From an uncultured Alphaproteobacteria bacterium (GTDB taxonomy: Bacteria > Pseudomonadota > Alphaproteobacteria > Rhodobacterales > Rhodobacteraceae), in the NCBI GenBank assembly GCA_929200255.1, contig CAKMYZ010000010.1, positions 62,001 through 126,000 on the forward strand: a DNA stretch of 64,000 nucleotides. The letters are read 5' to 3'. The notes beneath the pieces are model-generated. The model saw only the letters and a program-made list of their open reading frames with translations. It searched no databases and was not told the DNA's origin. Positions 61,084-63,953 of the stretch are shown here, piece by piece. A program made the translations under genes and the position numbers. Each line of letters starts with the position of its first letter. Position 1 is the stretch's first letter.

Positions 61084-61157
61084 GGCGAGTGGGCAGGTAG
61101 GTTATGCAGCGGATTGCAAATCCGTGTAGACCGGTTCGATTCCGGTACTCGCCTCCA
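61084..61157 (+). tRNA. tRNA-Cys (GCA)
   Basis: A complete cloverleaf: acceptor GGCGAGT pairs with ACTCGCC, anticodon loop TTGCAAA with anticodon GCA flanked by a stem, T-loop GGTTCGATTCC, and an encoded 3' CCA. The end of a tRNA gene is a classical integration site; integrase and other foreign fragments begin 110 bases downstream. Confidence 0.95.
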
Positions 61158-61269: not shown

Positions 61270-61659
61270 ATGGCAAAGAAGATAAAGTACCTCAAACAAA
61301 GGGGCGACTGGTATCACTTTGAAAGGGTGGTTCCCCCTGATGTTCGCCACCTTATTGATGATAAGGATTGGAGGCATACCCTTGATACTGACAGCAAAGT
61401 CGAAGCAGAGGCCCGATGCTTACGTCGTACGGTGGAGACTAACGAACAACTCAGAGCAGCCAGAAGCGGTTCTTTCCGACGCCTTGATCAAACTCAGATT
61501 GAAGACTTGGCTGTTCAATGGAGCCTCGACTTTCAACTTATCAACCGTGAGAACATCGCACGTGAAGCGTTTCCAGATGTCTGGGGTGAGCTTGATACAT
61601 TCGGTGATGAGGCCCCCCGCCCCATAATTCGTAGCAAATTGCCCTATTTGGTCCCATAG
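61270..61659 (+). pseudogene. Phage-type integrase, N-terminal fragment
   Basis: 129 residues starting MAKKIKYLKQRGDWYHFERVVPPDVR, the N-terminal DUF6538-like head of tyrosine recombinases that integrate at tRNA genes. The catalytic domain (R-H-R-Y) is missing: the reading frame ends with a TAG at 61657, and the sequence beyond encodes an unrelated protein. The usual protein has 400 residues or more. The gene is thus truncated by deletion, leaving the island immobile through its own enzyme. Confidence 0.75.
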
Positions 61660-62109
61660 GCGCTGACGTCAGACATTATTGAACCTAACCCATCAGAAGT
61701 CGCAAGAGGGCGTAAAAACCGTTACGGTTCGCATGGTTTGCGTTTTGCCCTCAAAGGTGCGGACGAAGACATAGATCAATTCACTCGCCGTGTTGGGCGA
61801 ACGGCCACCGATGAAATGGTGGATGATAATGGGCCAGGCAGCGGTGAATGGCAGTTCGGCTATAACCGCCGTAGTGTCGGCTCTCTGCACATTGATACTT
61901 TGACGATCCCAGCCAGTGACTTGGCTCAGCGGGGAGTTATGGCAGTCTACCCCGTTGGGGGGTGGTGGAAAGAAAGCCGCAAGGTTGATCCAGCACGGTG
62001 CTTGACGAGGTTCTCTTTGGTGGCCGAGATTGATGCTGAAGAGCAGGAAGTCGATCTTTACGCCGAAGTTCAGCAAGCTATCGCTACCCGCAACGTAGTT
62101 CAGGTTTAG
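61660..62109 (+). pseudogene. C-terminal fragment resembling an S8 (subtilase-like) protease
   Basis: In the same frame as the integrase fragment but after its stop codon, 149 codons are open with no start codon until 61738. The text includes RYGSHGLRFALKGADED, RRSVGSLHIDTLTIPASDLA, VYPVGGWWKESRK, TRFSLVAEIDAEEQEVDLYAEVQQAIA. From memory this pattern, GS(L/I)HxD followed by PVGGWWK and a C-terminal EVDLYTPI, matches the C-terminal domain of S8 serine proteases paired with an AAA ATPase in phage defence (IetAS type). The protease core with Asp-His-Ser is absent. So it is a relic of a defence gene joined to an integrase relic. The family assignment needs a profile search. Confidence 0.5.
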
Positions 62110-62204: not shown

Positions 62205-62220
62205 TTATCCCTAAGGATAA
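62205..62220. promoter_or_regulatory. hipBA operator 1
   Basis: TTATCC, four bases, GGATAA: perfect inverted repeat. First of three identical-design sites whose centres lie 49 bp apart. The half-site and spacing differ from the Escherichia coli HipB operator (TATCC-N8-GGATA) mainly by the shorter spacer. Confidence 0.75.
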
Positions 62221-62253
62221 AATTCAATATTCTGGGCTTCGATGATAGATATT

Positions 62254-62269
62254 TTATCCTCAGGGATAA
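62254..62269. promoter_or_regulatory. hipBA operator 2
   Basis: TTATCC-TCAG-GGATAA, extended by flanking T and A so that the palindrome is longer (TTTTATCC...GGATAAAA). Centre 49 bp from operator 1. Confidence 0.8.
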
Positions 62270-62302
62270 AATCTAATGACAATGCCCAGATCATACGATA
62301 TA

Positions 62303-62318
62303 TTATCCTCAATGATAA
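62303..62318. promoter_or_regulatory. hipBA operator 3
   Basis: TTATCC-TCAA-TGATAA: one mismatch in the right half (T for G). Centre 49 bp from operator 2 and 14 bases before the hipB start codon. It overlaps the likely promoter start site. Confidence 0.75.
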
Positions 62319-62331
62319 ATTATGGTGCAGC

Positions 62332-62625
62332 ATGAACATCGAAACGAACCTGACAAAGTGGGCAGTCAAGATTGGCAACCGATTGCGCACAAGGCGTAAA
62401 GAGGTGGGGTTGAGCCTTACCGACCTGTCACGCTTGTCTGGGTCCACGGCATCGACCTTATCACACATCGAACGGGGAACACGGGACGTGAAGCTGTCTA
62501 CGCTGGTTGCATTGGCCGATGCACTTCGCGTCGATTTGGCTGACCTTGTGGCCCCACAAGAACGCGAAGCGGGCACCGATACTCATAGCATCATTGATGG
62601 CTACGATCTGGACGATGACGCATGA
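62332..62625 (+). CDS. hipB: HipB-like antitoxin, XRE family
   Basis: A 97-residue helix-turn-helix protein. The HTH_3 fold covers residues about 15-70, with RLRTRRKEVGLSLTDLSRLSGSTASTLSHIERGTRDVKLSTLVALADALRV, the XRE signature (given in parts: LTDLSRLSG, ERGTRD). The acidic tail ends YDLDDDA. It should repress the operon through the three operators upstream and block HipA. The ATG 62332 is the natural start; the longer frame from 62242 reads through operators 2 and 3. Stop overlaps the hipA start (ATGA). Confidence 0.9.
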   Translation: MNIETNLTKWAVKIGNRLRTRRKEVGLSLTDLSRLSGSTASTLSHIERGTRDVKLSTLVALADALRVDLADLVAPQEREAGTDTHSIIDGYDLDDDA

Positions 62626-63953
62626 CCACAATTGATGAGGTGGCCGTATATTACGAGGCGTTCAGTGTCGGGCAAATTGATGTCCATAACGATGGCAAGC
62701 TGTCGCTCGTTTATGACAAAAGATGGCTGGCTACCAAGAGCAGTTTCCCACTATCCGTGACGATGCCACTGGCTGAAGGCAGCTACTCTGATCACATCGT
62801 CACGCCATGGCTTGCCAATCTTCTCCCCGAAGAACAGCAGTTGCTGACCCTTTCACGGGCGTTGGGTTTATCATCAACGGACGCACTCGCTATCCTCAAA
62901 GAAATCGGCGGGGATACCGCAGGTGCCATTTCCATCGGTGAACCCAGTGACAAGGCTGCTTGGTCGTATCAACCCATCACCGACTACTACGCCACTCAGA
63001 ACCCACAGGAGGCGCTCTCAGCGCACTTCAAGGACCTTGGCCAGCGCCCATTCCTCGCAGGGGAGGATGGTGTCAGGCTGTCCCTCGCTGGTGGGCAGAA
63101 GAAGACCGCCCTCGCAGTGTTGGACGCCACAGGTGTGCCGAAGTTGGGGTTGCCTGAAGTCGGTGACCAACTTGCCATCCCGAAGTCTGGTGCGCCCTCA
63201 ACTCTTATCATCAAGCCTGACAACCCGAACCTTCCTGGCATCGTTGAGAACGAAGCCTACTGCCTCACACTTGCGCGGCTGATTGGCATGAACGTTGCCG
63301 AAACTGGCATTGTCGAAGCCGAGGGTAGGACAGCACTTGCGGTGGCAAGGTATGATCGGACGACACGCAGGAACGGGTCGCTGCGACGCCTTCACCAAGA
63401 GGACTTCGCACAGGCGAATGGCATCTTCCCCAGCCAGAAGTATGAGCAAGGCACTTTGGCAGGGCTGGACCTCAATCGGCTCTTACGCACTGCACTGCAT
63501 CTTCCCGCACAGGATGCTCTGACACTGCAAGATCAGGTAATTTTCAACATCCTCGTGGCCAACACTGATGCACATGCCAAGAACTATTCAATGCTTCTCA
63601 GCGGCGGGCCGAGGATGGCACCGCTCTATGATGTATCGACCGTGCTGCACTGGGATCACGTGAACCAATACCACGCTCAGAAGCTGGGAGGGCGTAAACG
63701 CAAACCTGCTGATATGGCACGGCGTCACTGGGAACGGATCGCCGATGCCGCTGGGTTCAGCCCACGAGGTATCCGACTGCGGGTGCAGGAACTTGTCGAT
63801 GCTATGGTGGCAAAGCGTGTAGAGGCCGTAGAAGCCGTATGCGTCCAGTCTGGTGCCGAACGTGGCATGGTTGAGCATGTGGCGGGACTGATTGAAGGTA
63901 ATGCGCTTCGGATCGCTGGGCGGCTGAACGACCCATTGGAAGCCGCAACGTGA
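62622..63953 (+). CDS. hipA: HipA-like kinase toxin
   Basis: A 443-residue HipA-type serine/threonine kinase. Couple_hipA domain in residues about 1-100 and the kinase core after that. The catalytic motif NTDAHAKN at residues 314-321 gives Asp316 and Asn321, followed by YDVST, with the magnesium-binding aspartate; the SLAGGQKK loop and IKPDN segment supply nucleotide contacts. In E. coli HipA phosphorylates GltX and triggers growth arrest; target here is inferred. The gene appears intact, unlike its neighbours. Overlaps hipB by four bases and the following ORF by one base. Confidence 0.92.
   Translation: MTTIDEVAVYYEAFSVGQIDVHNDGKLSLVYDKRWLATKSSFPLSVTMPLAEGSYSDHIVTPWLANLLPEEQQLLTLSRALGLSSTDALAILKEIGGDTAGAISIGEPSDKAAWSYQPITDYYATQNPQEALSAHFKDLGQRPFLAGEDGVRLSLAGGQKKTALAVLDATGVPKLGLPEVGDQLAIPKSGAPSTLIIKPDNPNLPGIVENEAYCLTLARLIGMNVAETGIVEAEGRTALAVARYDRTTRRNGSLRRLHQEDFAQANGIFPSQKYEQGTLAGLDLNRLLRTALHLPAQDALTLQDQVIFNILVANTDAHAKNYSMLLSGGPRMAPLYDVSTVLHWDHVNQYHAQKLGGRKRKPADMARRHWERIADAAGFSPRGIRLRVQELVDAMVAKRVEAVEAVCVQSGAERGMVEHVAGLIEGNALRIAGRLNDPLEAAT

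Follow-up and report, generated by a model that had tools for sequence, protein, structure and literature searches.

HipA is a classic persistence toxin. In PMC3376134 and PMC3920265, HipB of E. coli is described as binding TATCC-N8-GGATA cooperatively at four sites with HipA as a co-repressor, and PMC7029023 states that HipA-HipA contacts in the E. coli promoter complex are thought to govern release of the toxin. The same paper reports identical inverted repeats at intervals before hipBA1 and hipBA2 of Caulobacter and calls them consistent with the higher-order structure in E. coli, and three operator sites are given for hipBA of Caulobacter crescentus in PMC8545095. For Legionella pneumophila HipBST, PMC10653801 describes three operators at even distances and shows by EMSA that HipB binds every one of them, and PMC10627512 describes a HipBST complex that is markedly unlike E. 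coli HipBA and resembles Shewanella HipBA.

Here, we analyzed a hipBA locus in a stretch of 64,000 nucleotides (the window; all positions count from its first letter). Like E. coli, the window carries several palindromic candidate operators with TATCC/GGATA halves before hipBA. The two loci differ in that E. coli has four sites with N8 between the halves, at 28, 39 and 28 bp as read from the genome for operators O1-O4 of locus L085 (28, 67 and 95 bp in the motif-blind test), whereas the window has three sites with N4 in all of them, at 49 and 49 bp, and hence neither the E. coli-type N8 halves nor an E. coli-type spacing (about 27-28 bp, or 28/39/28) was found. The annotation of L085 lists hipA as a pseudogene interrupted by a stop, and the operators before hipB are present.

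The hipBA pair and the sites before it

An HTH antitoxin gene is followed in the window by a full-length HipA kinase gene (Table 1). In Pfam-type searches, HipB matched HTH_3 (1.1e-14) and HipA matched both HipA_C (9e-48) and Couple_hipA (1.6e-22), the two domains lying in a single 443-aa HipA rather than being split into HipS and HipT as in HipBST. E. coli HipA aligns with query residues 16-436 of the window HipA (2.1e-33), and its TDGHAKN, FYD and SVAGAQEKT face TDAHAKN, LYD and SLAGGQKKT, which we take to be the kinase and autophosphorylation motifs, both kinds being present in the window protein. By these domain and motif matches the window hipBA is a complete type II toxin-antitoxin pair, with toxicity and neutralisation predicted, and it lies downstream of the sites as the sequence-only reading had it. 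One HipA_C match was found in its own genome. We took ATG 62332 as the start of HipB, since an ATG or a GTG stands at this position in relatives, often after GGAGG; an in-frame ATG also occurs upstream at 62242, inside the array, and the alignments of the start began only at 62332. When window HipB alone was compared with solved structures, the restriction controller C.AhdI was the best match (2.6e-6), followed by HipB(Lp) (6.8e-6) and Shewanella HipB (0.0024), and no E. coli K-12 HipB entry fell within 0.01 in this search.

Table 1. Genes, candidate operators and predicted promoter elements of the hipBA locus in the window
Feature	Position	Strand	Description
Candidate operator O1	62205..62220	.	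TTATCCCTAAGGATAA; halves perfectly palindromic, N4; most near relatives have a site at this relative position
Candidate operator O2	62254..62269	.	TTATCCTCAGGGATAA; seen also in relatives
Predicted -35 (ATGACA)	62276..62281	+	6 bp after O2; best hexamer pair at this distance in 27 of 47 relatives
Predicted -10 (TATATT)	62299..62304	+	Overlaps left edge of O3; 17 bp from -35
Candidate operator O3	62303..62318	.	TTATCCTCAATGATAA; one mismatch in right half
hipB	62332..62625	+	XRE/Cro-type antitoxin and repressor, 97 aa; domain and homology matches
hipA	62622..63953	+	Full-length HipA kinase toxin, 443 aa; 4-bp overlap with hipB

The surroundings of hipBA include a tRNA-Cys at 61084-61157 and then a short ORF at 61270-61659 with a DUF6538 domain only, presumably the start of an integrase; hipBA may lie in the remnant of an element inserted at tRNA-Cys. 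Between the DUF6538 ORF and hipBA, a 123-aa ORF at 61738-62109 had no match in Pfam, PADLOC or PHROGs and may be the remaining end of a larger protein that has been lost. A close HipA was found in none of 24 other genomes of the same genus, and distant ones (about 34% identical) were found in three.

The pattern TTATCC-N4-GGATAA is perfect in sites 1 and 2 and has one mismatch in site 3, and the start-to-start distances of the three sites are 49 and 49 bp. The sequence-only reading was right on the positions of the sites, their centres and both steps; its claim of a shared half-site holds for the left half TTATCC and the N4 spacer, common to all three sites, and fails for the right half of site 3, which is TGATAA instead of GGATAA. 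The palindrome of O2 extends further, to 62251-62272 (ATTTTATCC/GGATAAAAT). When the 200 bp before hipB were shuffled 20,000 times with dinucleotides preserved, one site (≤1 mismatch) turned up in 37 shuffles and two or more sites in none. With ≤2 mismatches the pattern occurs five times in the whole window vs 0.81 expected, and with ≤1 mismatch it occurs at five places in its own genome (3.6 Mb), three of which are O1-O3. A chance origin of the array was rejected on these local shuffles and on the shuffled upstreams of relatives described below. Judged from the letters and their conservation, the three palindromes are very probably operators of hipBA, evenly phased.

Spacing of the sites in near relatives and across Pseudomonadota

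Near relatives were taken as the best 80 of 487 confirmed HipA loci in a scan of genome contigs. HipB lies directly upstream in 73 of the 80 loci, giving 74 upstreams with the window, 59 of them non-redundant (<70% identical), and a palindromic weight matrix was trained on the same upstreams without spacing information. In the weight-matrix scan of these 59 upstreams (from the best 80 of 487 loci), 101 of 102 adjacent spacings were 48-51 bp: 48 bp in 6 cases, 49 in 38, 50 in 54 and 51 in 3, the lone 17-bp distance being a weak extra match in L069. Three or more sites were found in 46 upstreams, two in seven, one in two and none in four. Copy number ranges from 2 to 4 among the near relatives and the step stays constant; two Asticcacaulis loci (L012 and L067) have four sites 48-49 bp apart. 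Fifty shuffled sets of the same upstreams gave a mean of 3.4 sites and no distance of 48-51 bp. Moreover, a motif-blind search of the 74 upstreams (redundancy kept) found 25 palindrome pairs spaced 48-51 bp; 200 shuffles averaged 0.085 such pairs and never gave more than 2. Mononucleotide shuffles were used for these tests on relatives as well as for the broad sample, the controls and the later loci below. The sequence-only reading had proposed the comparison of homologous upstreams as its test and had named random numbers and spacings as the outcome that would count against it; this is clearly not what the relatives show, and the comparison lends strong support to its idea of phased operators. 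The looped or wrapped HipB-HipA complex that it also proposed may exist.

Four near relatives (L016, L062, L066 and L070) lack the motif by scan. Three of them have other palindromes at a like step, namely TTTCCAATACATTGGAAA in L016 (49 bp), TTTCCAACATATTGGAAA in L066 (50 bp) and TTTGTCCCGGGGGACAAA in L070 (48 bp), and L062 is the exception, with a best pair at 39 bp (p 0.05) and 50 bp ranking second. Distant alphaproteobacterial loci have CTTCCCG/CGGGAAG, TCCCGATCGGGA and others at 48-51 bp, and another group of distant alphaproteobacterial loci has sites at 26-28 bp or multiples. Relatives keep almost the same spacing despite a changed site sequence, which hints at a match between the spacing and the form of the silencing protein complex. 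A spacing that outlives the operator sequence points to a like higher-order complex across many HipBA systems, and hipBA operators could be sought by such a spacing rule with no need of a motif.

For a broad sample, 138 upstreams of hipBA were drawn from Pseudomonadota, Alphaproteobacteria among them, and 136 remained after removal of near copies. From the 130 loci fetched, 11 were lost for want of a HipA N-terminal match and nine for want of an upstream ORF (one of 29 earlier loci had no ORF). The 136 upstream ORFs include some that do not encode HipB: of 212 ORFs, 12 failed a HipB-like HTH profile. The motif-blind pair test was significant (p≤0.02) in 97 of the 136 upstreams and not significant in 39. 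In 35 loci the best pair was spaced 26-29 bp, and in 28 loci 48-51 bp (4.3% and 3.9% in shuffles). Another 24 loci lay near multiples (seven at 53-56 bp, four at 80-83 and 13 at 95-101), which are weaker evidence because shuffles also put more there (5.1% at 53-57 and 8.8% at 95-102), and 10 of the 97 significant loci fit neither class nor its multiples. Among 150 control upstreams of other genes on the contigs of near relatives, 10 were significant, vs 3 expected at p≤0.02, so the test is somewhat lenient, and none of these lay at 26-29 or 48-51 bp. We define the 50-bp class as loci with at least two like palindromes 48-51 bp apart before hipB, a definition that covers the window.

Eight loci were added later, seven of them new, as L259 repeats L133. 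Three lie at 49-50 bp (L252 on a Roseovarius plasmid, L255 and L258) and two at 27 bp with multiples (L253 and L261), L260 has 54/27 at p 0.04, and L257 gave nothing significant. At E 1e-10, one plasmid record was found for HipB and two phage-collection records for HipA (one Salmonella); a scan of viral contigs gave five loci, of which one is a repeat of L025 and another starts within hipA. In three loci with another HipB type (L249, L230 and L220), AGCAAC/GTTGCT-like palindromes occur at a 30/60-bp step, significant in L249 only, and a third spacing class is possible there; similar palindromes stand 71 bp apart in L251. At 10.5 bp per turn, distances of 28, 39, about 49.7, about 50 and about 71 bp fall at 240-274 degrees. 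A label of 'same helical phase as E. coli' was dropped, the mean of the 27-bp class (27.2) lying at 212 degrees.

A tree of 100 taxa was built from HipB HTH and HipA N-terminal columns, using class-labelled loci only (multiples counted for class) and about every fourth near relative. Class changes four times on this tree vs at least 25 times in 300 label shuffles; one change is the main split and the others are single loci. Class thus tracks phylogeny. The class of L097 was probably miscalled, because 49 is its second-best spacing. L117 and L172, within the 27-bp clade, have best spacings of 48 and 51 bp and may be real exceptions to the match between class and phylogeny; the pair of L117 lies far upstream (-182) and that of L172 is odd-centred.

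Profiles were built from hand-chosen HipB sets, and the one from 12 HipBs of the 50-bp class (none from the window's clade) matched HipB(Lp) at 3.2e-15, Shewanella HipB at 1.8e-13 and E. coli HipB at 5.2e-7, the one from eight HipBs of the 27-bp class matching E. coli HipB first by far (1.4e-29). The window locus is in the 50-bp class and, by profile similarity, the HipBs of this class are nearer to those of Legionella HipBST and Shewanella HipBA than to that of E. coli. The two spacings may reflect two complex shapes, given these HipB sequence matches and the comparison of complexes in PMC10627512. The last residue is W, F or Y in all eight HipBs inspected from the 27-bp class (L132, L136, L121, L240, L147, L161, L182 and L157), and it is W in E. 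coli HipB; most of the compared HipBs of the 50-bp class have some other residue at this end. The HipB tail may differ between the classes in holding HipA.

Predicted promoter, proposed mechanism and competing explanations

Promoter and spacer comparisons used the 61 of 74 upstreams that hold site triples, 47 after thinning; their spacing counts were left unused because triples had been sought only at 48-51 bp. The best -35/-10 score between O2 and O3 was above that between O1 and O2 in 37 of the 47 loci and below it in three. The distance from O2 to the best -35 is exactly 6 bp in 27 of the 47 relatives, and the -10 meets the left edge of O3 in the 12 loci inspected.

Given the type of HipB and the position and conservation of the sites, a HipB dimer would sit on each palindrome. 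O2 and O3 would bracket the promoter, whose predicted position follows from conservation in the 47 loci, and when occupied they would exclude RNA polymerase, because the -35 follows O2 by 6 bp and the -10 overlaps the edge of O3; O1 would be the same step taken once more, upstream. Adjacent HipB2-HipA2 complexes would touch, probably via HipA, and keep the step of about 49-50 bp, and the resulting regular array on DNA would repress tightly and hold the toxin. Neighbouring operators may be occupied cooperatively, for which the conserved spacing gives indirect support. The HipA-HipA contact is borrowed from E. coli, because we know of no solved structure with an array spaced at 50 bp; such contacts in the E. 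coli promoter complex were reportedly described by Schumacher in 2015. We put roughly a 75% probability on this reading, autorepression of hipBA by a HipB-HipA array in which neighbour contacts set the step of about 49-50 bp. Release of HipA in E. coli has been tied to promoter-complex contacts, and the spacing suggests the same kind of complex more widely.

Promoter length alone might instead fix the O2-O3 distance, with HipB dimers binding independently and O1 a spare site of no geometric role. The predicted promoter does fit neatly between O2 and O3, and O1 is the missing site in six of the seven near relatives with two sites; yet loci with other motifs likewise step by about 50 bp, in several cases twice in a row. 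Promoter length is rejected as the whole explanation: the O1-O2 interval is just as long and has nothing comparable as a promoter, and the four sites of L012 and L067 stay 48-49 bp apart. This explanation is therefore unlikely, and contacts between neighbouring HipB-HipA complexes are, we infer, the simplest remaining cause of the step.

It is considerably less probable still that another regulator, such as a nucleoid protein or a different XRE repressor, binds the sites and hipBA is only its target. The sites are predicted targets of HipB, which leaves some room for such a protein, but the motif differs between hipBA clades while its place before hipB is constant, and HipB proteins are known to bind such operators (PMC3376134 and PMC10653801). 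In addition, a search of 292 genomes of the order for two TTATC-N6-GATAA at any gap of 18-48 bp gave five forward matches in three genomes, all before hipBA, with a gap of 33 bp and a sequence identical to the pre-hipBA DNA of the window, L001 or L002. Least credible of all is the idea that a 49-bp unit was recently duplicated in tandem and left the even spacing as a trace of copying, which would suit the exact 49/49 of the window and the identity of O2 and O3 with their flanks at 20 of 23 bases, because spacers are not repeated within a locus (identity 0.257 within loci vs 0.268 between loci; 0.367 in the window) and the step is shared by loci with unrelated motifs and spacers.

E. coli HipB has been reported to bend DNA by 70 degrees, and if this bend is assumed, the mean spacing of the 50-bp class gives 3.1 sites per superhelical turn. 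On a tentative reading to which we give somewhat less than even odds, Pseudomonadota hipBA promoters would be molecular rulers with settings of about 27 and about 50 bp, matching the compact E. coli and the extended Shewanella/HipBST complexes and preserved through long evolutionary times as operator sequences turn over; in the 50-bp class, three operators with 70-degree bends would add up to roughly one superhelical turn and so wrap into a small particle that keeps the toxin silent. If this is true, the ruler settings would match complex shapes and outlast the operator sequence, and promoter DNA would thus predict how the toxin is stored.

Comparison with described HipB operators

The sequence-only reading regarded the arrangement in the window as a geometry different from the known one. 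This is borne out against E. coli (N4 and 49/49 vs N8 and 28/39/28) and needs qualifying in view of the descriptions of the Caulobacter repeats and three operators and of the even operators in Legionella, which are precedents. The likeness of Caulobacter crescentus hipBA1 and hipBA2 to the window lies in the described number of operators, three, and in the inverted repeats at intervals; Caulobacter segnis L075, which belongs to the window's clade, has spacings of 49 and 50 bp. Legionella HipBST likewise has three even operators, and HipB(Lp) is the best solved match of the 50-class profile. The Legionella system differs from the window in its reported 53-bp gaps between 18-nt operators (taken literally, about 71 bp from centre to centre), in its motif, and in having three genes with a split HipA. 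In Shewanella oneidensis HipBA (4pu3), HipB matches the 50-class profile more closely than its E. coli counterpart does, and PMC10627512 likens the complex to HipBST and sets it apart from that of E. coli. Neither two spacing classes nor a spacing that persists through motif changes were found described in the literature, of which coverage was limited, so that this is weak evidence of absence. By comparison with these systems, the array itself is of a known kind; what merits further attention is the conservation of spacing in two classes.
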